Below are positions 14,582-55,765 of a stretch of 64,000 bases of DNA, piece by piece (position 1 is the first letter of the stretch; every line of letters starts with the position of its first letter). The notes below the pieces were generated by a model. The model did not search any database. It was not told the origin of the DNA and was given only the letters and a program-made list of their open reading frames with translations. This DNA comes from Dioszegia crocea (taxonomy: Eukaryota; Basidiomycota; Tremellomycetes; Tremellales; Bulleribasidiaceae). The stretch spans positions 992,001-1,056,000 of the forward strand of contig BCKK01000006.1 in NCBI GenBank assembly GCA_001600615.1, written 5' to 3'. Position numbers and translations under genes: made by a program.

Positions 14582-16004
14582 ATGAGAGACCCTTTCGAAG
14601 CCCCTTCACAGCACCTCTGTCCTGATTTTGACGACTCAATACATACCCTTCGAGCCGACTGCGACTATTGTTACCCTCAGTATAAGATCACGCTCTCACC
14701 GCATCCCGAAATGCCTAAAATGGCGGTCCCGAAAACATTTGCCCCTTTCACCTCCACTTTGAACCCCCTGGCGCCCGACAAGGTCAAGCAACAAATCCCG
14801 AGTGATATTTGGCATTTGGTCTTGCCCTACATTCGCAATCCCCGTCCGGCACCCCTATCCCGACCACCTCGTTCGGCGTTCCGTCAGCCCCATCTTTGCG
14901 CAGCGGCTCGAACATGCCGGGTAAGTTGTTTTTCTGCACTCATCCGGCCCAAATTCTAGCTGACATTTGGAGCTGTTCCACGAGATCTGTGAGAGACTGC
15001 TCTCCACTGAACTCTTCCTCGACGGTCTATACCACATCGGGCAGACTATCGATCAATTACCCCCATCCTCCAATCGTCGTTTCCGCCACACTCGTCAACT
15101 ATACATCGAGTATTGGGGGACTGCGGACGACCCTCCATATGTCGCGCTCCTTCAGGATGATGGCGGGCAGTTCTGGGGAATGTACGGGAGATCCCGAGAC
15201 AAGATCGATATGTCTGTCTTATGGGACTGTAGTGCGGAGTTGGGGACTTTGCTGTGGGCACTGGAGCTGTTCAATAAATACGGAATGGCGGAATTGTTCC
15301 CGAAGCTTGAGACAGTGTCTATCGCGAGCATCTACGGCAAGGAGAATGACCGCTGGGTCGATTTTGTCAACCTTCGCCACAAGAAGGACCAGGAGCTCGA
15401 GAGGTTCGGCGCGTGCGGTACCGCCTTCATTACCTTCCTCATGTCCGGCAACCTCCAGCACGTTTGCTCGCGCAATTCGAGCGGGCCCCTCAGTATCGAG
15501 CCCCACTACTACTTGCCCGCTATACCTACCTACACCTTATCTCTTCACCAATCTCTCATCATAGATCTCCTCCCTTGCCCTTTAGGCTCACCAGTACGCT
15601 GGGTGAGCGACAACCCAATGACCAGGGATCTGGCCACGGTCTTCACGGAAGTCGGGAAAAGCACATCAGAGCTGATCGGTGATCGAGGCCAGTCTAGCAG
15701 CTCGGATCTCGGTCGACCGGTTGATCTCAGCATATACTGCTCGACTGCGGCCCTCATCGTGCCACCCAGTGAGCTCAAAGGCGGAGTGTCCCATCATGCA
15801 ACGGCGGAAGAGCAGGGACGTATGGCGCGTGAAATGTGGGTGAAGACTCAGCATGCGTTGCGTCAGGCTGGTGGGAAACGGGATGTGGTGAAATGGTTGC
15901 CATCAGGGATGACGCCAATCTGTGAGGCCTGTGGCTCGGGTGCTCCGGGCGACACAGAGGGAGCTTGGGTTTCGGGGCCATATGCCCTTCAGCCGACGAG
16001 TTGA
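14582..16004 (+). CDS. F-box-like CGSG-family protein, copy A
   Basis: First of ten related genes in the window. Exons 14582-14920 and 14973-16004 give 456 residues; an alternative ATG at 14711 gives 413. Exon 1 ends in an F-box-like block: IPSDIWHLVLPYI, then RPAPLSRPPRSAFRQPHL, then ARTCR at the splice site. Exon 2 starts LFHEICERLLS and carries the shared blocks LYIEYW, LFPKLETVSIASIYGK, SGNLQHVCSRNSSGPL, PLGSPVRWVSD, DLSIYCST and the C-terminal ICEACGSGAPG. A tail of about 20 residues (AWVSGPYAL) follows, like the tails of copies D and H. F-box proteins recruit targets to SCF ubiquitin ligases. That role is only an inference here because the motif is divergent and split by a Pro-rich insert. 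Confidence 0.72.
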
Positions 16005-16303
16005 GAGTAGGAGCAGATCTAGAGGAACCGAGATGGCGCTGTGTGTTATCTGCAGGGATAGCTCTCGCCTGTCTGCTCATATAACTCGTCAGTATACTTC
16101 ACCGCAACCAATATCGATTTCGGACGAGACCCATGTCGACGACGGAACCAACATGAAACAAGCTCGATGGTCAATACCTTCAAATTCTCTTCCCCTTCAC
16201 CATCTCTTCGCTCTTTCACTTCAGTGAGTACTCTTGTCATTGTATCCTACTCTTCATAGCACGTCAGCTGATTCCCAGGCGACCTTGTTCTCTACCCCTC
16301 GCA

Positions 16304-17752
16304 ATGGGTATTTTTTCCATGTTCGACTACTCCTTCACACCTCCCTCAAACCTTGATTCGATGGCTACCCTCCCCGTACCAAGCGAGGACTCGCAGCCAC
16401 GTTCCGAATTCACGGACTTCAATCACCAGCATGAATCGCCCTCTATCCATCCCAAATCTCCACCAGCTCTGCCTCAGGACCGAGTGCCGACAGAACTACT
16501 GGTTATGATCTTCAACCACCTCCTACGACCTATCCCTCTTCCGCTCAGCAAACCCCCCCGCTCTTCCTTGAGGCAGCCGGACCTCATTTCCGTTATGCGT
16601 ACTTGCAAGGTAGGTCATCTTCTTTAAATATAATGTTTCTGATAGCTCACTCAACAGCTATGGGAATCAGTCGCGGAGCCGTTGACTTACCGTCATATCG
16701 CGACAGACCGTTTCGCTGGCCTCCTACTCAACATACACCTACCCTCCATGCGCCGTCGCCTCGCTTATACCAAATCTCTCCACCTCGAGTACCTACCATC
16801 TGGGCTTGAGCCTTCATACGCTTGCATCCTACGTTCTGGTGGAGACGGCTGGTCCATCTGCGGAAGAATGGAGAAGGATGACAGATACAATGATTCCAGG
16901 GTCTTTGCGGAGTGTCGCCTCGAAGCGGATGACATGGAGTTATCTCTGCGCCAGGCAGTGTCATTAGGGATGAAGGAGGTGTTTCCGCGGCTTGAGAGGA
17001 TAGGGGTGGGATCACTCTACGGGCAATCTGAGACCTGGGACCGGTTCGACGGTGGGAGAAACGGACCCGAACCCGAAGACGCTATCCCCCTCCCCTCCGT
17101 GTGCTGTATGCGGGTCTTCAATTCCTTCCTCGCAACCGGCAGTCTTAAGCATCTCTGCATCCGAAGCAGCTCCGGACCCCTCACCCTCCCTCTCGTATCT
17201 TACGAGTCCCAACAACCGACGACCTTCACAAAAACGATCCACTTTGGATACAATCTCACGGACAACCTACATCTCCCCCTCGGAACGCCCGTTCGCTGGG
17301 TCAGCGATATACGGCCAGGCGGTGATTGGGGACAGACTCTGTACGAGTTTTCAGGCTGCGTCCAGCGTCTGATACAGCAACGGTCCGCAGATGTCCGATC
17401 AAAAGGACGTCTGGCGGACGCTGCCGATGTTGAGATATACTGCTCCACCAATCATCTCGAGCCTGGCGCGTTCTACTACAAGATGGACGCGTTCGGGATC
17501 GGACCTGCCTCGGGCGTGACGAGACATCAATGGAAATACTCTACCGTCTTTGACTATGACGATGACGAAGCGGTCGGCTATACCCTCTCGAACATGCAAC
17601 AGAAGCGGATTGCATCGCACCTCGATTCGGCGGTCCAGCAGCGCTTCCGCCGTTCGGGCAACAAGCTTGATTCCGTCAGGTGGCGTCTATCCAGCCTTAC
17701 TCCTATCTGTGAGGCGTGTGGGTCTGGCACCGTAGACGGCGGCAAGGTGTAA
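16304..17752 (+). CDS. F-box-like CGSG-family protein, copy B
   Basis: Exons 16304-16609 and 16658-17752 give 466 residues. A Ser/Pro-rich N-terminus of about 60 residues precedes the F-box-like block VPTELLVMIFNHLLRPIPLP, then PPRSSLRQPDL and MRTCK at the intron. Exon 2 begins LWESVAEPLTYRHIATD and contains LPSMRRRLAYTKSL, LRSGGDGWSICGR, GMKEVFPRLERIGVGSLYG, LKHLCIRSSSGPL, LPLGTPVRWVSD, DVEIYCST and SLTPICEACGSG near the end. Copy C is its closest relative in the window: long blocks such as FYYKMD-x-F-x-IGP and HLDSAVQ are shared only by these two, which points to a recent duplication. There is no signal peptide or membrane helix. Molecular role unknown. Confidence 0.75.
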
Positions 17753-18215
17753 GGAGATGAGGAGGTGTCGTGGCCAAGGGAGGGGACCGGGATGTTGTCG
17801 TTGTGTATCACGGAGAGAAGAGGCGTCGTGCCGGTCTCCGGCGATGCGTTGTCCGCCGAGAGACGGGGGAGAAGACGTGGCAGGGTGAAAGGACAGGTCA
17901 TCGTTGGGAGTATGGAAGGGGGTTGTCAAATGCGGATTAGATAATGCCAGGATTCTGAAAGTGGCAACATGCTTCCCACCCCATGGCCCTAAAGTAGACA
18001 GCGAGGAGGTCAAGACTCTATCATCCTACACAGTATCCGCCTTGATCCGAGTGGGAGGATGAGAACCTTGAGCCCGGCATCCAATTTCGCCGTCATTTCA
18101 TTTTCCCCAAATTAATACTGGTGTCCTTCTATTTTGCGTGACGTTCAGGCTAAGAAAACGGCCATTGTCCTATTCTCTACTATCTGCTCTCCTTCCGCGA
18201 ACACTGTAACACTTC
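17753..18215. other. Intergenic region between copies B and C
   Basis: 463 bases holding the terminator of B and the promoter of C. Short antisense frames have no support. No leftover piece of another family member is visible. Confidence 0.5.
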
Positions 18216-19650
18216 ATGCTCGCCGACACAGTCACACAGCCGCTGGATAAATCCCACTCCTCTCTCGCGCCAAATGAGACAGCCGGCTACAGCGCCAAGC
18301 CTGATGGCGGGGCTACATCTTAGGCTCCTGCTCAGCACACCAACACCCTTCCTCGGGACAGAGTCCCATCTGAGATTCTGATAATGATCTTCAATCACCT
18401 CAGAAACCCTATCCCTCTTCCCCTTTCTCAGCCAAAGCGATCTGCTCTGAAGCAGCCTCACTTAGCGATGATCATGCGCACCTGTAAGGTGGGTCAAATT
18501 CCTACCTGTTCGTCTAGCCTTTAGAAGCTCTTAATGTGGAAGCTATATCTGACGCGTACAGCTATGGGAGTCAGTTGCTCAGCCGATGCTGTATGACCGG
18601 ATTCTCACAGACGACCTCGCCAGCCTCTTATCCCAAATCCATCTGCCCTCCATGAGACGTCGCCTCGCCTATACCAAGTCCCTGAGCCTCGAATATCTCC
18701 CGGCTGGACTTGAAGTTTCACATGCATCCCTCCTTCGATCGGGCGGGGATGCCTGGTCTTTGTGCGGGCGGAAGGGGAGAGACTTTTCGGATGAGCTACT
18801 TTACGCGGAGTGCAAGGCGGAGGCGGATGGTCTGAAATCAGCCCTGAGCGAGGCCGTCAAGCTTGGGATGAAGGCGGTGTTTTCACGGCTGGAAACTCTG
18901 GCCGTGGGGTCATTCTACGGCCGGTCGGACACCTGGGACCAATTCGACGGTGGGCGATGGGGTCCGAACGCTCGGAACGCTACTTCTCTCCCCTCGGGTC
19001 CCGCTCTTGCCCTCTTCAACACCTTCATCTCATCCGGTAATCTAAAACACCTCTGCGTTCGCACCAATCGCGGACCCCTCAATCTCCCTCTGGTCTCATA
19101 CGAATCTGAGCGCAAGACCAGCTTCTCCAAGACGGTCCACTTCGGTTGGAACGTCACCGACACCCTTCCCCTCCCTCTCGGTTCGCCTGTCCGATGGATC
19201 TGCGAATTCACCCCTTCTTCAGACTGGGCGCAGGAAGTCTATGATCTGTCGCAGTGCTTCGACCAGATGATGGATCAGCGGGCGGAAGACGCGAGGACGA
19301 AGGGATATCGGACGGACGTTGCAGACGTCGAGATCTTTTGCTCCAGCAAAACTCTGGAGGCCGGCGCATTCTACTATAAGATGGACACATTCGAGATCGG
19401 ACCCAACTCGGGTATCACCACGCGAGACTGGAAGTACGGGACCACCTTCAGTTATGACGATCCCAAAGCCACCCCCTACAAACTCTCCAGTCAGCAAGAA
19501 AAGCGGATCGCCGCTCATCTCGACTCTGCAGTCCAGGAACGATTTCGCGTGAGTAGTCGGAGAAAGGACTCTATCCGCTGGCGCCTTGCAAGCGCAACTC
19601 CCATATGCGAGGCTTGCGGGTCACGCGGTCGGGGCAATGCGCCGTCTTGA
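18216..19650 (+). CDS. F-box-like CGSG-family protein, copy C, with 5' in-frame stop
   Basis: Exon 1 runs to 18488 and exon 2 is 18562-19650. The ATG at 18216 is in frame with the F-box-like block, but a TAG at 18321-18323 interrupts them. The block itself is intact (RVPSEILIMIFNHLRNPIPL, then LKQPHL, MRTCK). Exon 2 has every family landmark: LWESVAQPMLYDRILTDDL, LPSMRRRLAYTKSLSLEYL, LRSGGDAWSLCGR, SGNLKHLCVR, LPLPLGSPVRW, DVEIFCSS and ATPICEACGS. Use of the next ATG (18384) would give 397 residues but lose the first F-box helix. A 93-base intron (18231-18323, weak GTCACA donor) would also remove the stop. So it is either a slightly damaged gene or one with an unusual 5' intron. Exon 2 shows no decay. 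Confidence 0.65.
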
Positions 19651-20121
19651 TCGATATCACGAGTCGAAACGCGGAGGCTCCCGTCGGGGCATTGAGGTGT
19701 GTACGTGGCTCCATCCGTCAATATTGCTATATCTTCGGCTATAAGCTGACACGAATAGTATAGGAAGTCTTCACAGCTACTGGGGGATCGGTTGGCGATA
19801 GTAGCGGGGCATTTAGCCATTGGAGTTGAACGTGCGAAAGAACATTGCCAATGGTTCACTCTGCAGAATCATTTCACAATCATGCACCTTTGGATCTTTG
19901 ATACTATGCCTCATCCGCGATATCTTGTTGAGCGCATTGACTATCGATGAGTTCACACTGACATCGCCCGGCTAAAAACTTAGGTGAATCAGAGATACCA
20001 CGTGTTTGCAACTCATTCCTCATTTTCGGAATTGACCCCGCGCCCAATCCGCGCCTCTGAAAAGTCCCCGAAGCTGTCAATAACAGCTTCATTTTGGCTT
20101 TCTTATCACGTCCCGATTTCC
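19651..20121. other. Intergenic region between copies C and D
   Basis: 471 bases with a terminator and a promoter. The open frame reaching upstream of copy D starts at a GTG and is not taken as coding. Nothing else is seen. Confidence 0.5.
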
Positions 20122-21528
20122 ATGTCGGTGCCATCCTTTGGCCCGGTAGACTTCGGTCATGGAGATCCATCACCAGGCTCTCGAATTCCAGACGTCGCGT
20201 GGACTCTGATTCTGCCGTATCTTTGCCTGCCGATTCCAGCACCTTTGAGCATTCCTCCTCGATCCACATTCCGTCCGCCACTCGCTACGGCCATGCGGGT
20301 ATCAAAGGTGAGAGTAGAGAAAATGACCAGGTGGATCAACATTTAGAAGCTGTACTGATGACTGTAGCTCTTCCAGAGTATTTGCGAACCCCTTCTTTTC
20401 ACCCACCTAATCACTGATCGATTCTCCCGAGTCATCTCTAATCTCCACCTTCCCTCCGTCCGACGCCGTCTAGGTATGATCCGAAGCCTTCATATCGAGT
20501 ACGAAGAAAAGGGTCGCGAACCTAGCTATAGTGATATTTGCGGGAATGGTGCGGTGGCTTGGGGGATGATTGGAGCCGCGAAAAGCAAGGCGGAAAAGGG
20601 AATCATGGCGGAATGCGAGAGGGAGCTCGTCGAGCTGGAAGCTATCTTGTCGGCAGTCAACAAGCTAGGATCGAAAGCTGTTTTCCCCAAACTCGAATCC
20701 ATCGCTATTTCTTCACTATACGGTCGAGACTCGGACGACATGAATGAGCTCGTTTGGAAACGTCACGAGCAAACCTTTCGGGATTCATTCACCCTTTCAT
20801 CCGTCACGATGAGCTGCTATATCGAATGGGAGATCTTTATCGAATCTCTCCCACTCAAACATTTCTGCATGCGGGACGATAATGGTCCCTTACGCCTTAA
20901 ACGGATATCCCACGCTTCCAAAAATGAAGGTCCCATCCCTCCCTGTTCTACAATCTACCACTTCGGCTACGAGTTTGACCACCTTCCCCTCCCCCTCGGC
21001 CGGCAAATCAACTGGGTTTCCGATGTCCCCATGATGGAAGACTGGTCTATCCCTCTCGAGTACTTCGGATACTTCATGCTCGACAACTTCCAGTTGCGGG
21101 AGAGTCTCGCTGAGGACCGGAACAGGCCAGATGTAGCCGACGTGGACATCTACCTATCCACGAGCTACGCGTCTCCCCCACTCGACCCGGCTACCGCGAT
21201 GGAGTTTCGGCTCTTTGAGCCAGCTACAGGCCGGAGATTGTCGTTCAAGCATCAGGAGATGCTGATGCCGATGCTGGAGGAGACGATTAGGGATCTTATG
21301 AAGGAGCATAGATGGGAAGATGGACATAAGATACGCTGGCACGCGTCGACTCAGACGCCGACTTGTGGTGCGTGTGGGTCCGGAGTACCGGGGTCGAGGG
21401 CGGGAATGTGGGCTACGGGGAAGTATGTCAACAATGTTGTCGAGGTAGATCTGACCAAGGCGGGCACCATGCCGGCGGATGATCCCGGTGCGAAGGGTGG
21501 CATAGAGGAGGATACGATGATGCTATAG
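20122..21528 (+). CDS. F-box-like CGSG-family protein, copy D
   Basis: Exons 20122-20307 and 20368-21528 give 448 residues. The F-box-like block is eroded at its start (VAWTLILPYLCLPIPAPLS) but keeps PPRSTFRPPLATAMRVSK at the intron. Exon 2 begins LFQSICEPLLFTHLITDRF and carries LPSVRRRLGMIRSLHIEY, KAVFPKLESIAISSLYGR, LPLKHFCMRDDNGPL, LPLPLGRQINWVSD, DVADVDIYLST and TPTCGACGSGVPG. In the DIYLST block the usual Cys is Leu. A C-terminal tail of about 45 residues (GMWATGKYV then an acidic end) extends beyond the CGSG motif, as in copies A and H. It closes the first tandem array; the PMP3 gene follows 249 bases later. Confidence 0.73.
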
Positions 21529-21777
21529 CCGTCTGTGCGCCAGACCACTCCTTGGTATCTCATAACGAGTGTCACACAGCAGCGAATATGGTCACCCACT
21601 CAATTTGTCTGAGCCTGTAGTCTCGCTCTCAGTTGCTTACGAGATGATGATGACGTCAAATTCCTTCGCTACCCAAGCGCTGCAAACCTCCCTTTGTTGT
21701 TATTGCCACCACTCTTCACCTTCGCTACAGCTTAACGCTCTTTCTCTGACACACACCTACCTGTTACTCTAGCCAAC

Positions 21778-22529: not shown

Positions 22530-22857
22530 GACCATGTCCGCCAGTCTGCATATGTGCGGCAGGGACAATACTAGGAGTAAGAGAGAAGAGGAGGGGTTCG
22601 ATACGCCACGGAGGATGCTGGGAATAGATCGAGAAGAGGGGAGCATGATCATGGATTGAATGAATTCTCGATTGCGGATTCTTGGGTTCACGGCGGTTCG
22701 TCTGGCGCTGTGAATCCCCAGCTGTGCAAACCTTCGAAGGAACATGCGAACTCATCAATATATGTACTCTACATCTACATAAGGTGGACCCGAAGTGGCT
22801 GCCCTAAACATAGCCCCAGACCCTGTCGCTGACCCATCAAACACCTCGATCCAAGGC
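22530..22857. other. Convergent intergenic region
   Basis: 328 bases between two converging stops (PMP3-type gene and ceramide synthase). It holds both terminators. An overlapping minus-strand open frame has no features of a protein. Confidence 0.5.
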
Positions 22858-29150: not shown

Positions 29151-29174
29151 GACACGCCGACACGCCGACACGCC
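29151..29174 (+). repeat. Three perfect tandem copies of GACACGCC
   Basis: Unit of 8 bases repeated three times without change, inside the large gap between the two paralogs. Too short to type; it could be a factor-binding cluster or replication slippage. Confidence 0.7.
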
Positions 29175-37597: not shown

Positions 37598-40500
37598 CTA
37601 CCAATCGTCATCCGGGGGTGCAAGGCCCTTCATCTCCACCTCCTCATCCGAGCTTTCATCCGCTTTGGCTTTATTGAACAGCGCATTCATCTCTTGTCGT
37701 TTCTTCTGCTCCTCAGACAAGACATCTGCACCGGGGACGAATTTGGCTTTGGCTGCAGTGGTAGTTTTAGGTGCTTGAGACACTGCGATCGTCAGCACAG
37801 GCCTTGGGTATCGATGTCGAAGGCAGACTTACAAGACGTCATTCCTTCCGGTTTGAGACTCTTGTACCCTGGAGCGGTATCTTTTCCGGCCAGCCATTCT
37901 GAGGCTGTACCGACCGCAGTCTCCACATCCATCGCATCGACATAGATGTCATCTTGGAAGAATTCGGGCTGCAGAGTCAGTGAACCCCCAGACGAAGCTG
38001 ACATTCCACTCACCTTATTTCTCGGGATCGAAAAGGTGACTTCTTCAATGATCTTTCCAGTCATCCTCAGCGCCTTTATGATCTCCACCTTCTTGACATC
38101 CACCTCCGACTTAGTCTTGAAAGCCACGCCCATCTGTGCGTCTCCAGCAGTATACGTTGGCAACTTCGAGATGGGCTCTGACGCGTGGTCGACGTTTACC
38201 TCATAGGCTGAAATGGCTCGTTCACCTTTACCCCAGATGTAGAGGATTCTCGTGTCGGGATCGTAAGAGGGGAAGAGGACCGACGGGGAGATGTCTATCA
38301 TCATGGAGTGGATCGTCTCGACTGAAGTGGGCGATATGGAATAGAGGTTGATCCGGCGTTGAGACCCGCGGTTGAAGCCGACTGATACTAAATGGGTCGA
38401 GGAGATCCAGGCTAGCTGGAATGAACGAGGACTGTCGTGCGCTTTGCCCGATCGCACTGTATCGGGTTTGCGGGGATCGAGGACTATGACTTTACCGTCT
38501 TTTGAGGCGATAGCGAAAAGGGCACCGTCCGGGCTGATGGTGAGATTGAAGATGCCCTTAGTATCGACAGGGACGGCCACTTCTTCCTTGCCAGTAGAGA
38601 TGTCAAAGAACCTCAATGATGACGAGGTGTGATCGTTCGTTGCCGCCACCAACAGATCTTTGGCAGTAGGATGAAACGCGATCTGGACAATCTTGTCGAT
38701 CCCTTGACCTGAATGATCAGCCACAAACTCGGATTGGGAACACACCCTTTAAGGTCAATTCAGGGCTCGGTCCAGGGCCCTCCACACCGTCCTTCCCGAC
38801 TGTCCACACCCTGATCGCCCCATCATCACCCGCAATCGCGACTCTCGCTCCTTTCACGTTGACAAAAGGCTCAACAGCAAAGTCGGCAATTTCGACACCG
38901 CCGCTCAGATATCCTTGACCCCCATTTGGCATTCTCCCCTTCTTGGAGAGGGGGTGTACGCCAAGTCTTCCGCCTGGGCCTTGAATGGGGAAGAATGCGA
39001 GATCACGGGTGCATTTCAGAACGATCGAGTCGGGATGTAGTGAGGCGAGGGGAGGGAGCTGATCGTAGGTGGGAATAAGGGGTGCTTTGGCTGACATGAA
39101 TTTGCGCGAGTACGTTGGGTTGAAGGGTGCATTAGGAGCAGTGAGGGGAGTCGAGGTAGGGACCGGTTTACTAGGAGCGGCGGCACGAGCAGGTGGGCTG
39201 ACCGCCTCTGTAACCTTGGTCGAGGGTTGAGGTGCTGGTGCTTCCGACACCTTGGGTGTCGCTGATTTTGGAGTCACCTCCCTTTCTGCCGGCTTTTCCT
39301 CAGCCTTAACCTTAGCCACGCCACCATCAGGCTGTACACTGCCCTTCTTCGTCTCCACGTGTAGCACCTCTCTGCCCCGTCCGTACTTTAATTCCAGGCC
39401 GCTCCATCCCCTATCCCAAATACTTTCCCGCCACAATTCATATCCCGGCATATACCGCTCAACAAACTGCCGGACCTGCTCATCCGTCATCCCCTTCCCA
39501 CCATTTGCAGCCTTCATTGCGCGTTCTTGCTCTAGCCGCCATGCAAAGACGTGATCATATGACGTGGGCACCACAGTGATGAGGGAGCTGAAGAAGGGGT
39601 ACACCTCTGCCGAGAATCCCGAAAGGTATTCGTTCAGCTCGGTGAGCGCCTCTAAAGAATGCGCGGCGAAATATTCCGAACCTCGGGCGGAGTAGCGCTC
39701 CGCCAGACGCCTTGAAGAGAGAGGAGCAAAACCCATTGACCAGCCTTCGAGGATGAAGACGTCGATCGGGCCGGTGACTGTGATGACTTTTTCGCTTCTG
39801 TCGCCTTCGCCGTTGACGAGAGACTTGTCAAAGATGGGTAGATCGACCGGTGTGGATGAGTCATTCACCCCTCGGATAGAAGTGAGCACCGACTTGGCGA
39901 GCTCTGGGTCATGTGTCCCGGGCGGACCGCGACCGGAGAGAAGGTGGTTATTTGGGTGTTTTTGCGCCACAGCTTTGAGATTCGCGTTGGTGTGGTACAA
40001 GTCTAAGGTCAGCATCTTGCGAGAAGCTTAACTCACCGTCAAGAGACAGGACAGCTGCTTTGATGCCCATCTTTTGGCCGAGGTACGCCACGAAACCGTC
40101 ACACAACGTAGTTTTGCCTGAATGTTCAGTATTTGCTCGTCTTTAGTAGAGATAAGACTCACCACAACCCTGAGGACCTTGCAGACCAACGAACATTGGC
40201 TCTTGAATTCCCGCTTCGCGATGTTTATCTAGCTCTGCCTTTATATGCTGCGCAATGATTCGTGCTTTGAATGTGGTTGACGAGTACGTCTCATCCCCTT
40301 GCAGATCGGGGACATTTGCTGATCGCTCTTCAGCAGCCGGCCTGGGAGGCGAGGCAGAGAGGGAAGCAATAGCAGGCGCCGGCAATGGTGAGGCTGCGGC
40401 CTCCGCCGGTTCAGGTACCGATTTGGCTGTCTCGACAGGAGGGGATGTCTCTTTCGATTGCCCGTCCTCTGCTTTAGTCTCTGCTGACAGCGGTGCAGAT

Positions 40501-41867
40501 GCCGATGTAGGTCCCGCCTTTGGCGCATACTTCTCGAGCTCCGCTTCCCAGGTCCGCCTACGGGCCGGATTTAGCGATATTGGCAGCGGAGACTTATTGG
40601 TCCCGCTAAACCACTCTGAAGCGCTACTCTCAGGTACTGATTATCAGCTCGTCCACCCGAGCGGTAGTGATCTCTTAACTCACCATAGCCGCTGATCTCG
40701 GGGTATAAATCCTCGTGAAAGTCAATCAGCTGCCGCCTCGGTACCCTGATACCAAATGGCACAATTGCCTCGCCATCCTTATCCACCACCGGCACTAGCA
40801 CTGTAGCGATTTGAGCCTGCATCACTGGTAGAGTAGTAGGACTCGCAAGTGCCATGCCCGCGGAAAAGATGGCGTGCGGTAGCGAGTGCAGCGTTTCCTG
40901 ATACCCATTCGGCCCGGACAGCTCAATCTGACGCAAGGTCATATCCCCTCGACCGGTCAGATAGATTATTCGCCTCTCGTGATCAAAGGTAGGGATAAGA
41001 GGAGCAGTGTTGGTATCGATGTTTTGCGTGAAGACCGTAGCGAGGGACTTCGACGTGGAGAAGAGGTGATATTCTCGGCTCCGACTTCGGGAGGTCGACG
41101 TGACGAAGATGTCATCTCCTACCCAGACTACGCGAGCGGGCTTTATGGGTTGGAGAGGAAGAGCTCGGCTCATGGTGGGCTGTGTAGATGATCGAGGATC
41201 CCAGATGTAGGCTGTACCGCTCTTGCCGACTCCGGCTACTAGGCGGCCATCTGCAGACCAGGCAAGGCTCCACAAGCCTTTCGGCTCTTTCGCTTCGAGC
41301 TGGAATACGGGAGATGTGGGAAATGCAGTGAAGTCCCATATGGCGGCGGGTTGTGATAGACTCGAGGACAGCACGATGGATGGCACGGTAGGATGAAGGG
41401 TGATCGACGTTATGCCAGAGCCTGTTGCAGGTGTGGTATGCTCTGGACCGGGTAATGTCGTGCTATCAGCTTTCAGGCGATATAGTGACACCTGGTGGTT
41501 AGGATCCTTCTCACCCTCGGGATATTCAGTCACTCACAGATCCATCCAGACTCCCAACAGCCAGCTCCCCACCCTCCACGCGACCCAAATCCCAATCCCC
41601 CACTCCACCGCCGCTCCCGACCTTCCCGGACCCTACAGCCGCTTGTACCCCAGTAGCATCATATTTCCTCCATGATACGTCTCCGCTCGAAGTGACGGTA
41701 ACGATCAGCTGCCGGTTCGCCTTGATCTCGGAGCTGAAAGAGGATGTCGCCGAGATGGTTGAGTTGCCCGACCCCGACGGGAGCCCTGAGCGGTACCATT
41801 CTTCCCTAGGCGGAAGATAAGGGACAGAGTTTCGGAATTTGGATGCGCCGAAGCGGTTCTGAGCCAT
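37598..41867 (-). CDS. Coronin - P-loop kinase - coronin fusion protein
   Basis: Eight exons (41538-41867, 40684-41491, 40163-40636, 40037-40117, 38746-40002, 38014-38708, 37833-37968, 37598-37782) join in one frame to 1321 residues. Residues 1 to about 385 form a first coronin-type WD40 propeller (SKFRNSVPYLPP start, WSLAWSADGRL, AYIWDPR, DLYPEISGYG end). Residues about 500-780 are a kinase of the D-glycerate 3-kinase/TDA10 family, with Walker A GLQGPQGCGKTTL (about 530), GRGPPGTHD (588-596), FDKSLVNGEGDR (622-633) and LEGW (649-652). After a Pro/Ala/Lys linker, residues about 860-1255 form a second coronin propeller (HPLSKKGRMP, ISPDGALFAIASKDGKV, RILYIWGKGE). The acidic end MKGLAPPDDDW recalls coronin-7. 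Coronins bind actin or Arp2/3; the kinase substrate is unknown. The fusion is the unusual part. Confidence 0.88.
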
Positions 41868-42012
41868 TTTGAGGGTGCTATGTAAGGACACGGTTGAGGT
41901 GAATCAGAGAGGCTTGCTGGGTGGACGAGATGAAGTTCCGTCGGAAAGGACTCGGATTTTGGGTGGCTCATTTGCCTCTCATCGTCCCTGTCATCACAAT
42001 ATCTCGCCCACC

Positions 42013-43228
42013 ATGTCATCTTCTCGCGGTACAGGCTTGAACATATTCCCTCCTGAGATATGGATCAGTATATTGATCCATCTGAGGAATCCCATACCCC
42101 CCGCACTCTCCGCTCCACCTCGCTGGGAATTGCGCCAGCCCCATTTACCAAAAGCCATCTTGGTCTGCAAAGTGAGTTCCAGGATTGGCATGTACTAATC
42201 TCCAGACCTTTCGACGCATCTGCACTCCCCTCCTCTATCGATCAGTCGTCACAGATGATTTCTGTGGCTTCGTCTTCCGATTCAGCCGCCTGCCCTCGCG
42301 GAGACTCCTCAAACTCGTCGAAAATCTTTACATCGAGTATCAAGAGGAGCGCGCCGTACCCAATTATTACTCTCTTTTCAAGCACCCTTCACCTCGATCA
42401 TGGGAGTTGCTGGAACTTCCACTCTCGGGCGTGAAGGAGCAGATCCTCTGCAATTGCGAAGTGGAGGCGGATTCGTTCCAGGAGGTCTTGGAACAGGTGA
42501 CGGAGATTGAGACGAGGAAGTTCATGCCTAAACTGCGGACAGTAGCTGTCAGCTCCATCTATGGGCATTCCAATGTCTGGGCAGAGTACGACCGGTGGCA
42601 GAACCACCCAACTTCAGGGTCGGTGGTGGGCGAGTGTGTCGAACTCTGGGACACATTCCTGGCGTACAGCAATGTCGAATCCCTCTGCATCCGCCGAACC
42701 AGTGGACCCCTCGGCGTCAACCCCATTGACCGTCGAATGCGCCCCGAGTTCAACATCCCAAAAGTCACACTACACTTCTCCCATCCTCCCGATATCCTCG
42801 GTCTCCGCCCAGGCGTCCCCATTCGTTGGGTCCTAGACTCACCTATCCCGCAGAAATGGCAGTCAATCTACAGCCACGTAATGACATCCTTAGCTACTAC
42901 CGCTGAGCGCCGGAATCGTCGTTTCCTCAAAACGAAAGCCGATACATTGCTGCTGGATATCTATTGTTCAGCAGAGATCCTCGGTTCACGCCCACCCCAA
43001 TTTGCGATCCCCTCCGAGGTGCCCTATCTAGATCGGCTCGCGGCTTCCACACCGGGCGGCACATCCCCCAAACTCTCTCTCGACGTGCAGCGCGCAATCT
43101 CCGAGCGGATAGGGCCACTTCTCTCATCCACCTTCCGAAAATCGAGCAAAGTCAAAGATTCGGTACAATGGCATGCGAGCGCAGATGCTCCGATTTGCCA
43201 ATGCTGCGGGAGTGGGCCTCCACTCTGA
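42013..43228 (+). CDS. F-box-like CGSG-family protein, copy E
   Basis: Exons 42013-42171 and 42206-43228 give 393 residues. Exon 1 is almost only the F-box-like block: FPPEIWISILIHLRNPIPPA, then PPRWELRQPHL and LVCK at the intron. The intron is only 34 bases, with a TACTAAT branch point. Exon 2 starts TFRRICTPLLYRSVVTDDF and has LYIEYQEE, KFMPKLRTVAVSSIYG, SNVESLCIRRTSGPL, RPGVPIRWVLD, LLLDIYCSAE and the end PICQCCGSGPPL. The C-terminal motif is the very end of the protein. It is divergent from the coronin fusion, with 145 bases between starts. Its stop codon is followed in the same frame by the first exon of copy F. Copies E and F are closest to each other. Confidence 0.75.
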
Positions 43229-44512
43229 GTTGGGACGGTGGGAAGGCAAGACAGCGGGCGGTCGAGGATCAGGCGGAGGTTTCCTCAAGCGCTGTCAAGT
43301 AAATTATGGCTAGAGGTATTCCGCTATCTTGTCCAACCGGTCCCCCTTCCTCTTTCCCGCCCCGAACGCTCTCAGCTTGGCCAGTCGCCGGAACTTCTGG
43401 CTGTCGCCAGAACATGCAAAGTAGGTCTTTCATGTCTAGTCATCGAGACGTGCTGGCTGACTTGCTAGCTCTTCAACGAGCTTGCCAATCCCCTCATCTA
43501 CAGAGTCGTCGTCACGGACAAACTTCACCTACTTCTCCGCGGTCACAAAACCGGACGTCGCCGGAGACTCCTCGCGTATACAGAGCGCCTCCTCGTCGAA
43601 TACAGACATAAGGGAGAGAGTATCACGTATCACAACATCATGTCGGACAAGGAACGTAGCGAGTTCTACTGGAGAGGCATAGGGGAATCTTACGTGGAGG
43701 AAGAGAAGGGAAGGGAAGCGATGACATTCATGGGATGTCGGCTTGAGGTCGAGGACCTTTCCGATATCCTAGCCGGGGTCTCATTGTCGGGCCCAACTCG
43801 GGTGATCCTTCCAAACCTGACGAGAGTTGCCGTCGCCTCGATCTACGGCATGGACGAAACACACCTCTGGGCGCGGTATAACAAATTTCAGGAAACGGTA
43901 CGCTGGGATCTGGAATCAACCCAATCGATCGCAGTTTGGGAAGACGTCCTGCGCACCAGCAATGTTCGATATTGCTGCTTGAGAGAATCCGGAGGGCCAC
44001 TCGGCCTATTCCAGCTCGCCCCACCTACCCTCCCTGACCACCAAAATACCAATTTCACCTTCCATTTTATTCGGGACGACATCCCTTTCCCAATGCGGCT
44101 GGGCGCAGTCGTCCGGTGGGTGTGCGATGCCACATCAGGCGTTCCCTGGCAAGGAATCGTCCAGAGATTCATGCAAACACTGCTGAGCCTAGCTCCGGGC
44201 ACGCTAGGAACCGCCCCTGATACCCCCGAGACGGACGCCTTCCACATCGATGTATACTGCTCAACAGCAGTGCTCGGCAAGCGCAATACGAGACTCCCTC
44301 ACACACTCCCCTTCGAAAGTCTCGCTGCCGATATCCCGGGCGCGAGATCCAAGTCACTCACTGTCTCCACGCAGCGTGCGATATCGAGGCGCCTCGCCAC
44401 TCAATATCAGTCTGCGTTGCGGAAAGCGACCGGTCTCCACAACGTCCTCAATTGGTACGCCTCGGCAGACTCGCCAGTATGCGAGTGCTGCGGCTCAGGA
44501 CCGCCCGAGTAG
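43229..44512 (+). CDS. F-box-like CGSG-family protein, copy F, no own start codon seen
   Basis: Exon 1 is open from directly after the stop of copy E to 43420, and exon 2 is 43469-44512, about 411 residues if read from the open start. The F-box-like block (LSSKLWLEVFRYLVQPVPLP, then RSQLGQSPEL, VARTCK) is present, but no ATG lies in frame between the copy E stop (43226-43228) and the splice site. Exon 2 begins LFNELANPLIYRVVVTDKL and has RLLVEYRHKG, VILPNLTRVAVASIYG, SNVRYCCLRESGGPL, RLGAVVRWVCD, FHIDVYCST and the end PVCECCGSGPPE. It could be made by readthrough of copy E, by splicing out the E stop, from an upstream exon, or it may be dead. Exon 2 shows no damage. Confidence 0.6.
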
Positions 44513-45127: not shown

Positions 45128-46317
45128 ATGCTCGACGCCCCTTCGCACATATGGGCAGTGATTCTTCCCTACTGTCGCAATCCTCGTCCCCAACCCCTTT
45201 CGCGCCCGCTCAGATGCGATCTGAAGCAACCACATCTAGCTGTACTCATGCGTGTGAGCAAAGTGAGTCATGGCGGACGGTAGAGACAGCTTGAATTGAT
45301 CCGGAAGGTCGCTGACCTTGACAGCTCTTCAATGCCATATCTGAACCCCTCCTCGACAAGGAAATCGTTATCGACGAGCTATCCCTCCTCCTCTTGGACG
45401 CCAAATCACGTACCAAGCGCCGACAATATGCCCTCACTACCAGCTTGTACATCGAGTACCGCGAAAGGCAGTATGATCACACTCACAAAGATATTCTGGG
45501 CGATTCGAGGACATGGCCATTGGTGGGAGACCAGGCGAAAACAAAGAAGAAGTCGTACATGTTGGATTGTACGGACGATGTCGATCATTTGATCAAAGGT
45601 CTCGAGGCGGTGGAGAAGCAGGGCATGCGGGGAGTCTTCCCTAATCTCTCCACAATTGCTGTCGCCAGCATTTATGGTAGAGAGAACGACCACTGGAAGC
45701 GATACGAAGACCTTCACGCTCGAACATATTCAATCCCCAATACCATCCGGTGCAGTCAGCTATGGGACTCCTTCCTATCCTCTGGCTCCCTGCGACATCT
45801 CTGTGTCAGAGATCCTTCCGGTCCCCTCAACATCTCAAAACTGTCCCACGTAACCGATCCCGCCGTCCCGAAATTTAATCACACTCTATGCCTTCACTTC
45901 TCCGCCGACTGCGATCGACTCCCTCTTCCGCTCGGTCGTAAAATACGATACGTCTGTGACGCTGCATCGTCCGACAACTGGTCAGACATCCTTCGCGAGA
46001 TGGGTGAAAAACTCCATCAAAGCGCGAGGGTGAGAGCACGCGAATTGCAGTGGCCGGACTTGGCAGACGTCCAGATCTACTGTTCCACTACGTACGCTTC
46101 GCCAGCCAGCAACCCTCCCGATAGCTGCTTCATGCTCCAACCTCAATACTGCGGTAGGCGCCTGGCGGTGGCGGAGCAGCAGTTCGTGGCAAGCGAACTC
46201 GGCGCCATCATCCAGGACCTCTACAGGCAGCAGAGTGGCAAGAAGGATGAGATCCGCTGGTATGCCTCAGCTGAAACACCAAGATGTGAGGCGTGCGGAT
46301 CGGCTGCGCCTGCTTGA
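45128..46317 (+). CDS. F-box-like CGSG-family protein, copy G
   Basis: Exons 45128-45262 and 45325-46317 give 375 residues. Exon 1 is the F-box-like block alone: APSHIWAVILPYCRNPRPQP, then LSRPLRCDLKQPHL and MRVSK at the intron. Exon 2 starts LFNAISEPLLDKEIVIDEL and contains TTSLYIEYRER, GVFPNLSTIAVASIYGREN, SGSLRHLCVRDPSGPL, LPLPLGRKIRYVCD, DLADVQIYCSTTY and TPRCEACGSAAPA at the end. The central part is shorter than in copies B and C. No tail follows the CGSA motif. No stop or frameshift is seen. Confidence 0.74.
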
Positions 46318-46839: not shown

Positions 46840-48179
46840 ATGCCCCGTCGGGAGCTACCCACCGAGATCTGGGCGGAGAGAATCATTCCTCTCCTGAGAT
46901 GTGAGCCACCGAAGCCCCTGTCGATGCCTGCAAGGTCAGCTTTGCGTCAGCCTCACTTGGCTACTGCTATGCGCGTTTGTCGCGTAAGTTCTTCCTCATA
47001 TCTTCAAGGAGGGATTCCAAACTGATGGTCTAGCTGTTCCACGAGCTCGCTGCTCCTCTGCTGTACGAAAATGTCATCACCGATGACCTACGAAGCTTCA
47101 CCTGGCTAGGCGGAACAGCTGCGAAAAGCCGACAACTCTCCCTCGTCAAATCCCTAAAGATCGAATACCGGTCCAAGGGCAATCTCCCCACTCCCACTTA
47201 CTTCGATCTCTGCCGCGTAGGTCGTCAACAGACATGGCAAAACGTCGGGCGCTCCGCCAACGAGGCCAAGAACCTGGTCATGAAGGATTGCGAGGCGGAA
47301 TCGGAGGACATCTTGAAGTGGCTCTCTCTGATCCAATCCGAGGGGTTGGGCAAGGTGTTCCCCAAGCTAGAAAAGCTCTCCGTGGGGAGTATCTACGGGA
47401 GGGACGAGGCGGAGGCGTGGTATCTGTACGAAGATTGGCATGTCGCTCGGGGTACCGAGTCTGTCAATGGAGACTGCGGACGACTATTCTACGACCTCCT
47501 CTTATCCTCCGGCAACCTCAAACATCTCTGTCTTCGAGATCTTGGTGGACCCTTAAATACCCCTCCTATCACCTACGCGTCCAAACCGAAATCTCGCGTT
47601 CCACCCAACTATCCTAAACATCCCAACCCTAAGTTCACCCAGTGTATGCACTTTGACGTCTCTGGCCGGGTCGATCAGATCTCCTCTCCCCTCGGCTCAC
47701 CCGTCTCGTGGGTCAGTGACTGTCCTTCAGGGACCGATCTTGGCTGGATCTACACTCGCCTCCATCAGGGCGTACAAGAGCTTTGCCAGGTACGGGAGAC
47801 ATTCAGGCCATACGGTCCTTGGCTCGATACGGCGAATATCACCATTTACGGCTCTACGGATCAGATCACTCCTCGAATCCCCTACCAGCACATTGGTGCC
47901 GACGTTGATATGGGCCCGTGTGTCGCAGAGTACGGGCCAGAGGCGCTCAATAGACAAGTCTTGACGGATTATGAAAAGCGAGTGACGTTGAGATCGATGG
48001 GGGAGGCGTTGCAGGCGGAATACAGAGGGCAGAGCAGGGTGAAGGATATCATCCGGTGGCTTCCTTCGGAAGATACGAAGCCGTGTAGCGCGTGTGGGTC
48101 TTTGCCTCCTGTTGCACGGGAGGGGGAATATGTTGCAGGTGCGGGACCGAGGATTGTGGCCCGATCAGTTGAGACTTGA
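46840..48179 (+). CDS. F-box-like CGSG-family protein, copy H
   Basis: Exons 46840-46983 and 47034-48179 give 429 residues. The F-box-like block is one of the best preserved: ELPTEIWAERIIPLLRCEPP, then PARSALRQPHL and MRVCR at the intron. Exon 2 begins LFHELAAPLLYENVITDDL and has LVKSLKIEYRSKG, GKVFPKLEKLSVGSIYGRD, SGNLKHLCLRDLGGPL, PLGSPVSWVSD, DTANITIYGST and KPCSACGSLPPV. In the IYGST block Gly replaces the usual Cys. A tail of about 25 residues (GEYVAGAGPRIVA) follows, as in copies A and D. No lesion is seen. Confidence 0.75.
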
Positions 48180-48449
48180 TGGAGATGTTGGTAGGGCCTG
48201 TGTTGGATGTTGAGCAAAGCGATGAGGAAGAAAAGAACCTGGTGTAATCTTCGCGAAGTAGCATCTTGGATCCGGAAAGATCTCTGTAGGCAGGCGGATA
48301 AGTGTCATAGGAATAGTTGGATGGCATACGTATAAGATTACTGAGGTACATGGTGATTATAAGTTCTACTTCTTCTATTTGTTCTACGCTGCTTCTACCA
48401 TCGAATTATGTCAAACATAACTCACTCCCCAGGGGCTATTGTTTCTTGT

Positions 48450-50825: not shown

Positions 50826-51485
50826 GATGAGTGATTTAAAGTGAGATGCGGAGGGGAAAGAGGTCAGTCGTAGCTGAATATATAGGTCGCTCCAGATGAT
50901 ACGGTAACGCTAAGCTTGGCGGAGAAGGGATCCCTGTCCCTCCCTAGATCTTGACACCCGCCACCATTTTCACGGCTCAGGAACCCGATAGATAACGATG
51001 ACCACATGGATCCGATAAGATACTGCAACTTACACACGGCGGCTTTCCGGTCGGCCGAATCTCGAGTCTAGATTGTCTAAACCTCCCGATGGGTACGGTA
51101 TCTTACGTTGATGATCACAAGGAACCATTGCTTAGCTGCGTGGGATTACCAGATCATTGGCCAAAGATGGCAAGGCGGGCAAGATAAGAGATAAGGCATG
51201 TCTCTAGCGCAGAAAGGCCGCCGCGGCAAAGAGGAAGCCGTAGGAAGATGACGTAAAGACGCACGGACCAGCCGTGTATATTACCTAAGCTTCGATTCCC
51301 ATCTCACCCCTATGCGAGCTACGAGTACCAAGTAGACGATTGATGATTTGCTGTACATATATCGCACCTTACGCACAGCCTTGAGATCTATATTTGAATC
51401 GCTACAACGAATTCTGCTCAGGTAAGTTTCTTTTCCGCGCCCAGAGAGACTAAAAACTCACCCCTGAAGTGAAAGCCGTATAGCC
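50826..51485. promoter_or_regulatory. Divergent promoter region (amidase / copy I)
   Basis: 660 bases between opposed starts. A TATATAGG stretch at about 50879-50886 could be the amidase TATA element on the minus strand. GATAA/TTATC-type sites recur (about 50992, 51017, 51186), which in fungi are bound by nitrogen-regulatory GATA factors. This would fit an amidase but is only suggestive. Confidence 0.45.
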
Positions 51486-52730
51486 ATGCCCGTCCCACCA
51501 CTCCCATACGAGCTCTGGTCTCGAATCGCTGGCCTGGTACAGAATCCCAAACCTGCGCCACTATCATGTCCTCCTCGGTCGCAACTACGCCAGCCCCATC
51601 TAGCGGTCTTGAGTCGAGTCTCAAAGGTCAGTTCACAGCGCCAAAGCTGCCGGAAGAACAGAAACTGATAAGGTCAGATGCTCCAGTCCATCTGTGAACC
51701 CCTACTTTACACACACATCATCCATGACGAGCTCGCACACCTGCTCAACAATGTCGACTTCCCCTCCATGCGACGAAAATTCGCCATGACCAAATCTCTC
51801 TCTATCGAATATATGGCGCGGGGCCAAGATCCCTCTTACTCCATCCTGTGCAACGTCGGCGGCCCAGTTTGGGGATTATACGGCCGAACACATCGCGATG
51901 TCCAGGCTGGGATTATAGCGGAGTGTGAGCAGGAGGCGGATAACACACACTCCAGTCTAAAGATGGCAAATGATTACGGCGGCGCCAAGGTTCTATTCCC
52001 TAATCTAAAGACGGTGGCCGTCTCTTCGGTCTATGGTAGAGAGACCGACGCTTGGAAACGTCATGCCGGGGCGCGAGAGACTGGTCAGGGCGTAGGGGAC
52101 TCATATCAACATTGCTCATTAATGTTTGAGCGTTTCCTCGCCAAGAGTTCCGTTCGACATCTTTGCGTACGCGATCCAGCCGGACCTCTCACGATCCTCA
52201 CTATCTCCCCTTCCTTCCATCCCCACTTCGTCCCTGTCAAATACACGCAGACCATCCACCTCCCCGCCGAAATCGACAGCTTTGGAATCACATTTGGTGC
52301 TCCACTCCGAATCACTTGCGACGCCCCTTCCTCCGCAGACTTCGCCGTCCTCCTCTCGAAAATCCTATACGAGATCTGTCGGATCATGAAACAGCGCACT
52401 TTTATCGTCCGCGGCAGGCCATTCCGTGACCCACTAGATATCGAAGTCTTCTGATCAGCGGCAAACCTTACCCCTTACACTCTCACCCAAGCTCTAGGCT
52501 ACGTCCGACTAGACGGCTTGGGTTTTGAAAACGTCCTCTCCGACTGGGATATGTTCGATAAGTCGTATCACAAGATCACTCAGAAGGAGGCGAAAGGTCT
52601 GGCGGAGCGCATGAGACAATCACTTGTCGCCATGTTCCGCTTGTATAGCAAGGTGGATGACAACATCAGGTGGTCCACATCGGATCTGACTCCGATATGC
52701 GCAGCATGTGGGTCCGGACCTCCTCCGTGA
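51486..52730 (+). pseudogene. F-box-like CGSG-family copy I, with in-frame TGA at a conserved Cys codon
   Basis: Exons 51486-51626 and 51678-52730 keep one frame of 398 codons, broken only by TGA at 52452-52454. The F-box-like block is textbook for the family (LPYELWSRIAGLVQNPKPAP, PPRSQLRQPHL, LSRVSK). Exon 2 has LQSICEPLLYTHIIHDELAHLL, FPSMRRKFAMTKSLSIEYM, FPNLKTVAVSSVYGRE, SSVRHLCVRDPAGPL and the block DPLDIEVF just before the TGA. In sister copies the same place reads IYCS or IFCS, so TGA replaces the Cys codon (TGC or TGT to TGA is one change). Downstream the frame continues intact through NIRWSTSDLTPICAACGSGPP to a normal stop. It is a very young pseudogene, a truncated protein of about 305 residues, or a readthrough case. 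Confidence 0.75.
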
Positions 52731-52927
52731 CCGGGCGACATAGTGGAGGTCCGAATCGCTCCGGCGGAGAATATACAAGTAATGTAGAGAGGCTTCACGA
52801 AGTTTTATCAAATGTGCCACGATGCATGCTGGTGAAGTCGTCTCACCCAATGTGTACCAAACTCGACCGGTCACCACTTTGATCTCGATGCATCGCTTCC
52901 TGGGTTACCAATGTCTATACCCTAGCC

Positions 52928-54207
52928 TTACTGTTGAGGCTTCTTGTAGTTGATACCAGCGGATGCCTGCGCAGAGGGGAAAACGAGCATCTCGGCGATT
53001 TGGACATGCTCCGGCCTGCTAGCTGCCCATACGATCTGCTCGGCAATATCGTGGCCGGACACTGAAACGTCAGCTGTGTTTCCAGGTTAAGTCTCCGGGT
53101 ACAAGGGGTGAGGGACATCAGCTTACAGGGTGTCAGACCGGTGTATACGCTGTCTGCCGCGGCTTTGTCTCCCCTAAATCGGACGAGAGAAAACTCAGTC
53201 TCGACCATACCTGGTTGTCAGCCGTCTGATACACATGCCCGTAGGCTATTGAGCCAAGCTGAAACCTAAGTCAACTCACCTGGCTGGATCTCGCACACTC
53301 TGATGTTTGTGTTGACGAGCTCGCGTAGCAAACTGCCGTTGAAAGATCGGACAGCAGCTTTGGTGGCGCAGTATATTCCTCCACCAGCGTAGGGCTCACG
53401 TCCGGCAATGGAGCCGAGGTTGATGACCATCTATCATCATCAGCTTTACGCCCGAAAACAGTATGAGAGGGTGTTTGAACTGACGCCAGAGTTCTGCTTC
53501 TTCATCTCGCGCACGAAGATTTGGGTGAGGCGGATCAGACCGACGACGTTGGTGTTGATCATAATCTCGATATCATCGTCTGCGATATCTGGAAGGTGTT
53601 AGCCAGAGATACAGTAGTAACCCGGTCATCATCGTGGGCGCAATTTTGATTTGAAGGCTAAAACATACCTCCGATATGTTCACGACCTCGGACCATCCCA
53701 GCGTTATTTACCAGACTACAAAATGAGCGTGATCCATGCTAGCGGCGTTTCTGACGAGGCAGTTAGGCAAAGACTCACATGTCGACCTTCAACCCGTTCA
53801 ATTTACCCAGCACACCTTCCAGACTCTCCTTATTCGAGACATCCGCCTCAATAACCACCACTTTCCCATCGGTCACTTTGGCCTCCTTTTGACCATCCTC
53901 ACACGCCTTCTTCACTTCCTCCAGCTTATCCGCTCGACGAGCAAGAAGGACAACATTCGACCCCGCCCGGGCAAAGAGGTGGGCGGTCGCTGCGCCGATA
54001 CCGGCCGAAGCTCCAGTGATGAGGGCTGGTCAGTCAGTATTGTGATAATCTTTACGACGAGGATTTTGATAGGTCTTCGTGTGAGTAGTTGTGATACTGA
54101 TGACAAGCTTACCAGTCTTGCCGACAAGACTACAACATCAGCCTGGTCCATCCGAATAATTGCGGGGACGAAGTTGCTTACCGAGATGTATCAAAGATGC
54201 TGGACAT
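52928..54207 (-). CDS. Short-chain dehydrogenase/reductase (NADP-dependent, YMR226C-like)
   Basis: Eight exons (54182-54207, 54113-54129, 53779-54025, 53669-53715, 53485-53588, 53280-53430, 53127-53210, 52928-53061) give 269 residues. Rossmann motifs are complete: TGASAGIG (about 18-25) for cofactor, ARRADK after the second strand suiting NADP, NNAG (about 96), the catalytic Ser in INLGSIAG and YCATK for the Tyr/Lys pair. The size and the segments [22 protein letters not shown] and [20 protein letters not shown] fit the YdfG/YMR226C group, which oxidises serine, 3-hydroxy acids and related alcohols. There is no membrane segment or targeting signal. Exon 2 is only 17 bases. The exact substrate is not fixed by sequence. 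Confidence 0.92.
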
Positions 54208-54597
54208 TTTGCGCTGAGAGTATACAGAAGATCGGACTAGTGATTGAGCAGTGTTTGATGTCCGTGTTGTGAGCTTAGTTATAGCTAGGAGCATGTATAG
54301 ATTTGACAAGGTAGCTATAGAGATTGTGGTTGGTCCTCCCAGCCCCCCCCCTGACTCGGCCCGGAGTATCGGCTCAACTAATCGGAGATAGCCGACATAC
54401 CCGACGGTTGCCGAGTTGGTGGAGGAAGCTGAGGGATAGCTGATGGGTACACGAGTGCAGATACAGAGACGGGACCTACATTATTACCTACACTATGCTA
54501 TCCTATAAGATACGTCGTATCGCAGATCTACAACCTATAAAGCAAGATTCCATTGATTCAAGAAGATAGCCCTCCAGCCTCCCACGCCCTCGTCTGC
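54208..54597. other. Intergenic region between SDR and copy J
   Basis: 390 bases with the promoter of the dehydrogenase and the terminator of copy J (both minus strand). A run of C and a short inverted pair (GCCGA/TCGGC types at about 54356-54412) are visible. Nothing else. Confidence 0.45.
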
Positions 54598-55765
54598 TCA
54601 CCGCTCACAACCGCCACACTTCGCCGCCTTACGCCTAGGGAGCCATCTGACCTCATCATTCCCTACTCCAACCCCACACATATCATCCAAGATATCTTTA
54701 ATCACCTCGCCCGCATCTTTCGCCTCGAGACAATCCCAATAAACAGCATTCGACCCTTCCCATCTCCATCCAGGCGGCAGGTTCTCCTCCAACCGCCTAT
54801 TGAATCCGTCCGCCGCATCCGTCCCCGTCGCGTAGATATCTAGCATGATGCGCTGATCCACCGGAGTAGGAGACCAGGGCCGCATGGAACTCGTGAGGTT
54901 GAGGACGGATTTGACATTCTCGCGGATTGACGAGAATGTATGGGAGGTGTCGAGGACCCATCGACAGGGTCGACCGAGAGGTAGAGTCCAATATTCTTCG
55001 CCTGGTTGGATGTGCGTCGTGAGCGGGGTAGATGATAGGGTGGAAGGCGAATCTTCCATCAATGCTGGGAAATTCAACAGGCCTCCGCCTCCGCGCTGAC
55101 ATACGCCCTGGAGACGGGGAGCGAGGAGGAGACGGGGCATGGCATCTGATAGCTCACGCATCATTCGGCCTCGAGAGGCATTGACGCCTGTCCGACAGAA
55201 TGTATCCCATGAGGTAGGGTCGGGCGGACCGTAGATTGAGCCCAGAGCGAGAGTCTCAAGATTTGGGAAGGGGCCATGGGGGATTGCGAAAGCCGTGCTG
55301 GTCAGAGCGCCATGTAAATTGGCTAGCTCGTTGTAGTAGGCATCGTTCGAGGCTTGATCGTCGCCTATTGGGATATGGGATTTATCGGTATTTTCAAGAT
55401 AGAGGTGTTTGACACGATGGAGGAGGAGGGATTTGCCAGCTAGGCGAGGGGAACAGCTACGATGGGGATGTACGTAGAGTAAAGCGGCGAGGTCGTCACT
55501 TATGACTGAAGAGTAGAGTAGGGGAGCGGCGAGATCGTATAATGTCTGCCTTGTCAGCTCCTGTATATCAAACGGAAGAAGACAGACTCACAGAGCACGT
55601 CTTCATAGCAGCCACAAGATCCCCCTGCCTGATGTCCCGCCTATCCGGTCGAGTCAAAGGTCCTGGCACTTCCCGCTGGAGAAACCAGACGACCCGTTCC
55701 CAAATCTCCAGCCTCATCTCTCTCCCCGTCGACCCAAAATGAGCAGACAACAGGACCGCTGTCAT
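54598..55765 (-). CDS. F-box-like CGSG-family protein, copy J (divergent, opposite strand)
   Basis: The only member on the minus strand. Exons 55592-55765 and 54598-55545 give 373 residues. The exon structure is the same as in the others: an F-box-like first exon (REMRLEIWERVVWFLQREVP, then LTRPDRRDIRQGDLVAAMK) ending TCS at the intron, and exon 2 starting TLYDLAAPLLYSSVISDDLAALL. Family blocks are recognisable but worn: VKHLYLEN, FPNLETLALGSIYG, LPLGRPCRWVLD, MLDIYATG (Ala for Cys) and the end NDEVRWLPRRKAAKCGGCER, where CGSG is reduced to C-x-x-C. The frame is open throughout. It is either an old, diverged member or one under a different constraint. Confidence 0.68.

Follow-up and report, generated by a model that had tools for sequence, protein, structure and literature searches.

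An expanded, apparently unnamed F-box-like protein family with a putative zinc site in Dioszegia crocea

A stretch of 64,000 nucleotides from the basidiomycete Dioszegia crocea (contig BCKK01000006.1, positions 992,001 to 1,056,000 of the forward strand; here called the window) carries ten related two-exon genes, copies A to J. These genes are part of an expanded and apparently unnamed group of F-box proteins, whose members are most likely substrate adaptors of the Skp1-cullin-F-box (SCF) ubiquitin ligase. We consider it probable that they represent one expanded F-box family, in which a looped F-box and a zinc-pinned, leucine-rich repeat (LRR)-like domain are combined in SCF adaptors that mark targets for breakdown. 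The evidence that bears directly on this reading is an F-box recognised by sequence, a common gene structure, expansion in arrays, five invariant residues and, in four pairs of copies, an F-box under tighter selection than the protein middle.

All ten genes are present at the positions given in the preliminary description of this DNA. They share an F-box-like exon 1 that ends with an M-R-V-C-K-like motif, a single phase-0 intron (34-73 nt) at an identical point, and an exon 2 of 315-386 codons. The genes are as follows.

Copy A, 14582-16004, + strand: exon 1 14582-14920, exon 2 14973-16004; gene model and exon hidden Markov model matches.
Copy B, 16304-17752, + strand: exon 1 16304-16609, exon 2 16658-17752; F-box-like match above the Pfam cut-off; C-terminus CEACGSG.
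Copy C, about 18325-19650, + strand: F-box exon end 18488, exon 2 18562-19650; start codon not clear.
Copy D, 20122-21528, + strand: exon 1 20122-20307, exon 2 20368-21528.
Copy E, 42013-43228, + strand: exon 1 42013-42171, exon 2 42206-43228.
Copy F, about 43270-44512, + strand: F-box exon end 43420, exon 2 43469-44512; same frame as E.
Copy G, 45128-46317, + strand: exon 1 45128-45262, exon 2 45325-46317.
Copy H, 46840-48179, + strand: exon 1 46840-46983, exon 2 47034-48179.
Copy I, 51486-52730, + strand: exon 1 51486-51626, exon 2 51678-52730; broken copy.
Copy J, 55765-54598, - strand: exon 1 55765-55592, exon 2 55545-54598; keeps C-x-x-C, without G-S-G.

The ordered sequence blocks described earlier for these genes are real, and 15 columns are invariant in the exon 2 alignment of A-J. 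The C-terminal CEACGSG that had been put forward as their signature is exact in A and B only, whereas its C-x-x-C is constant in all ten; the variants are CEACGSR (C), CGACGSG (D), CQCCGSG (E), CECCGSG (F), CEACGSA (G), CSACGSL (H), CAACGSG (I) and CGGCER (J). Exon 2 of copy I is interrupted by a single TGA at 52452-52454, and the leader of copy C holds a TAG that no ATG follows before the F-box. In the interval 43226-43420, the stop of copy E is followed in the same frame, without an intervening ATG, by the F-box exon of F; fusion, read-through and a hidden 5' exon are candidate explanations for this junction.

The proposed F-box-like start was borne out by profile comparison. Copy B scored 27.6 bits against PF12937 (F-box-like; curated cut-off 24.3), and among the spliced F-box regions tested (39 out of 41) 35/39 matched PF12937 and 18/39 matched PF00646 at E<=0.1. 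A profile of the F-box region gave six matches to PDB sequences, of which four were KDM2A/B (best KDM2B, E 6e-5); the remaining ones, with E values of 1.6 and 5, were taken as chance. The KDM2B match falls into two pieces, helix 1, which alone is not significant, and helices 2-3, and leaves profile positions 21-32 without a counterpart. Copy B uses 57 residues to cover 42 PF12937 profile positions, which indicates that helix 1 is set apart from helix 2 by a family-specific insert of ~15 residues with the form P-I-P-x-P-L-S-x-P-P-R-S. The intron position falls inside the F-box. In the Pfam scan of whole proteins, however, E and H gave only weak F-box-like matches, and G and J gave no F-box match.

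The family is much larger than the ten members first proposed. The source genome (20.57 Mb, 17 contigs, labelled C1, C2 and so on) was searched at E<=0.01 with exon 2 of copy B, which gave 75 matches, and with exon 2 of copy H, which gave 72. After merging by position, 70 places were obtained, 10 of them inside the window; this number is an estimate that includes fragments and split genes. Copy J as query gave just 29 genome matches, mostly weak. The suggestion of local expansion was confirmed, with 57/70 places lying <=12 kb from another and 12 of the 14 clusters wholly on one strand. A DNA pattern for C-E-A-C-G occurred 41 times in the genome compared with 4 times for the backward control, and copy B matched its best other copy with an E value of 5e-150 in the paralogue search; chance is therefore not an issue for the family. 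The C-terminal pattern also identified 23 further places outside the set of 70. Among these is a distant subfamily, made up of five places on C3 (273-291 kb) and a single place on C2 (2.557 Mb), which has an upstream F-box exon in 6/6 places and a called intron in 4/6. Some of the remaining 17 pattern places may be chance, given the 4 occurrences of the backward control. In the DNA that was analysed, a GT...AG intron was called in 41/43 exon pairs and was in phase 0 in 39/41; the call at C4 402926 is probably mistaken, because splicing there leaves a stop in the product. Of the 48 exon-2 places in the same DNA, 37 are complete and 5 are broken; the other 6 run off the end of the stretch, and one of these also has a frame break (these counts follow manual re-joining of one split gene; the script output was 49/36/7/6).

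The expansion appears to be confined to the adaptors, since there is a single Skp1 locus in the genome, hit as two adjacent pieces, and at least three cullin loci. A six-frame PF12937 search of the genome gave 105 matches, 104 of them over the cut-off, and no family place has any of these matches within 700 bases, probably because of the insert and the intron inside the F-box. Clusters of PF12937 matches that do not overlap the family were also observed, the largest with 19 matches in 55 kb (C6:1505307-1560065) and smaller ones at C10:369825-380895, C3:132580-153784 and C9:124585-134351. For the fungi we consulted in a published table, F-box protein counts range from 11 to 95, with 19 in Cryptococcus neoformans, 16 in Ustilago maydis, 60 in Phanerochaete chrysosporium and 95 in Laccaria bicolor, which has >23,000 genes (PMC7991009). 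Set against the 19 listed there for the relative C. neoformans, the 105 PF12937 matches and ~70 family places represent a large gap, to be read with the differences in counting method and the broken state of some places in mind. Our literature search found nothing on the present family, on F-box family expansion in Tremellomycetes or on F-box proteins in Dioszegia genomes.

To describe conservation across the family, 40 proteins of >=270 residues were aligned (39 from the genome, without copy I, and the metagenome protein P0001), and two that stop short of the C-terminus were left out. Only five residues, E44, C167, H195, C351 and C354 (numbered as in copy B exon 2), are invariant in 38/38 complete proteins at a mean pairwise identity of 25%. 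The four Cys/His residues are retained in copy J, in P0001 and in the distant subfamily as well. Cys and His make up 5.7% of residues, and the probability of four of five invariant residues being Cys or His by background frequency is near 5e-5, a figure that is a guide only, as Cys is often conserved for other reasons. The C-x-x-C-G motif has the shape of a zinc knuckle. We infer from the alignment that C167, H195, C351 and C354 may form a single zinc site with C-H-C-C ligands. These four residues make a sharp and cheap structural prediction.

The statement that no named family is present beyond the F-box held as far as it was searched. In Pfam scans of five whole copies the one match outside the F-box was below its cut-off, that of copy E to orbivirus NS1 (10.4 bits, cut-off 27), which was rejected as chance. 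No LRR family was found in these scans, so that repeats of a kind recognised by Pfam are not seen. AlphaFold2 models of exon 2 from copies B and G (predicted local distance difference test, pLDDT, 72.7/76.8; predicted template modelling score, pTM, 0.76/0.77) both show helices alternating with strands in an alpha/beta array. Among the best VIA matches, the weak structural neighbours of both models are mostly LRR proteins, including F-box/LRR proteins; MAX2 is among the best neighbours of both models, and D3, TIR1 and COI1 of the B model only. Glycosidases, other enzymes and NLR proteins are mixed in the Foldseek lists, whose best E values are 0.023 and 0.0032, with nothing at E<=0.001; these lists were not used as evidence. 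An exon-2 profile searched against PDB sequences had a single match, a transposase (E 0.39), taken as chance. Exon 2 may be a degenerate LRR-like alpha/beta solenoid.

Copy B matched nothing in the protein database at E<=0.01 among 6206 candidates, and a 29-member exon-2 profile gave one match, P0001, among 7996 scored candidates; this type of search depends on 5-residue words in common and ranks a capped set of candidates, so absence from other Tremellales is not proved. A control query, residues 780-1200 of TTI1, matched 116 proteins (best Dioszegia hungarica, 71%; best named Kwoniella protein, 62%), and Tremellomycetes are therefore represented in the database. TTI1 (TELO2-interacting protein 1) itself is encoded in the window by an uninterrupted frame of 1232 codons at 3727-7425. 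In the two database searches that used the family, J is the sole member with a relative outside the genome, being 54% identical to P0001. The idea that J is a decayed copy was rejected, since its end, CGGCE, resembles the CGACE of P0001; J may instead be a conserved, older member.

A tree of the 40 proteins places array mates together in several cases (B with C, four copies on C7, six on C4 and two pairs on C12) and separates the distant subfamily with full support. J and P0001 form a long, well-supported branch. The window copies are not one clade, and E and F group with copies from C1 and C2. Support is good for 18 of the 37 inner branches, and 16 are open.

The duplicates are old. Identity is 59% and 56% in the closest paralogue pairs. 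Of the 16 closest of 630 pairs, 15 have a synonymous divergence (dS) of 1.1-2.5, and the remaining pair is saturated. The ratio of non-synonymous to synonymous divergence (dN/dS) is 0.20-0.46 in those 15, as obtained by a simple counting method that is unreliable at such dS. In four pairs the corresponding ratio of proportions of differences (pN/pS) was 0.22-0.37 over residues 1-80, which span the F-box and the beginning of exon 2, compared with 0.25-0.87 for residues 121-200, and no 40-codon window had a pN/pS >1. The preliminary description had proposed fast turnover with copies at different stages of decay. Neither the divergence nor the dN/dS values of the 16 closest pairs lend support to fast turnover, and most exon-2 places are complete; three of the ten window copies, I, C and F, do have a defect or a doubtful start. 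With dS >1, dN/dS well below 1 and 37/48 exon-2 places complete, this is a long-established family, for the most part intact and under constraint, without visible rapid turnover.

Together, these results suggest how the proteins might work. Exon 1 and the first residues of exon 2 would form an F-box with the ~15-residue family-specific loop between helices 1 and 2, and this F-box would dock on the cell's one Skp1 and, through it, on a ubiquitin ligase of the cullin-RING (SCF) type. Exon 2 would fold as an LRR-like solenoid that binds the target, and zinc held by C167, H195 and C351-x-x-C354 would pin the C-terminal segment to the solenoid. Separate copies would then mark separate targets, as yet hypothetical, for ubiquitination and breakdown.

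A more specific role, which we regard as possible but unlikely, is that of an intracellular recognition arsenal like the nematode KSL/KSS proteins, which would destroy foreign or selfish proteins (products of viruses, transposons or toxins) and whose numbers and binding surfaces would diversify between lineages. The ~70 family places and 105 other F-box-like matches in a small genome with one Skp1 locus, the tandem arrays on the same strand and the faster evolution of the protein middle than of the F-box in four pairs are in keeping with such a role, but pN/pS never exceeds 1 in any 40-codon window of these pairs and the duplicates are old rather than recent. In its widest form, a single-celled fungus with one Skp1 and well over 100 F-box genes would possess a standing protein-recognition arsenal as proposed for nematodes and plants, with its largest unnamed branch a new adaptor architecture (looped F-box and zinc-pinned solenoid) directed against foreign or selfish proteins; we offer this as speculation to which we give little credence. 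It is also rather improbable that the family is a dispensable set of adaptors under drift, with tandem copies gained and lost randomly and mostly redundant in housekeeping or functionless. Large nematode F-box families are reported to vary in copy number through tandem duplication and some loss (PMC8665587), and 5/48 exon-2 places are broken here, with I, C and F also defective or doubtful at the start; however, purifying selection on nearly saturated duplicates and five residues unchanged in 38/38 complete proteins point to a long-kept function. Very unlikely is an F-box-like function outside SCF, for instance structural or nuclear, with the helical motif and the solenoid working in some other complex, as the helix 2-3 residues agree with the KDM2A/B F-boxes and, in four pairs, pN/pS is lowest on the F-box, taken as residues 1-80. 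If the family does act through SCF, this tractable yeast would be a simple organism in which to study why F-box arsenals grow.

Elsewhere in the window, two neighbouring WD40-repeat frames lie between the two arrays (37795-41533, - strand), with a 436-codon frame without a Pfam match between them. An Rfam scan of the window gave no match at the gathering threshold.

Compared with known systems, the family resembles PF12937/PF00646 F-box proteins in carrying a helix 2-3 motif close to the N-terminus ahead of a longer domain, but differs in the extra residues between helices 1 and 2 and the intron within the F-box, and among the five whole proteins scanned B alone passed the cut-off. KDM2A/KDM2B provide the best F-box sequence match. 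In those proteins JmjC, CXXC and PHD domains accompany the F-box, whereas the Pfam scans of five whole copies found no JmjC or other KDM2 domain. The C-terminal C-x-x-C-G of most members is like the zinc knuckle C-P-x-C-G; in contrast to a knuckle, the second pair would be a Cys and a His ~160-190 residues upstream rather than another knuckle close by, and the G is missing from J and P0001. Judged by its four invariant Cys/His residues, the family would be a candidate for the C2HC-type zinc-binding proteins. The exon-2 models are weakly similar to the LRR solenoids of F-box/LRR proteins such as TIR1, COI1 and D3/MAX2, from which the family differs in its C-terminal C-x-x-C with partner Cys and His and in having no Pfam LRR. 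Nematode F-box families are reported to expand by tandem duplication under purifying selection overall, with peaks towards the C-terminus (PMC8665587). Certain solenoid F-box proteins of nematodes are described as antidotes that destroy toxins via SCF (PMC12680543). The likeness to the nematode KSL/KSS proteins, which form large, clustered solenoid families with SCF action shown in nematodes (PMC12680543), is one of pattern only, and the present family differs in that its pairwise dN/dS is well below 1.

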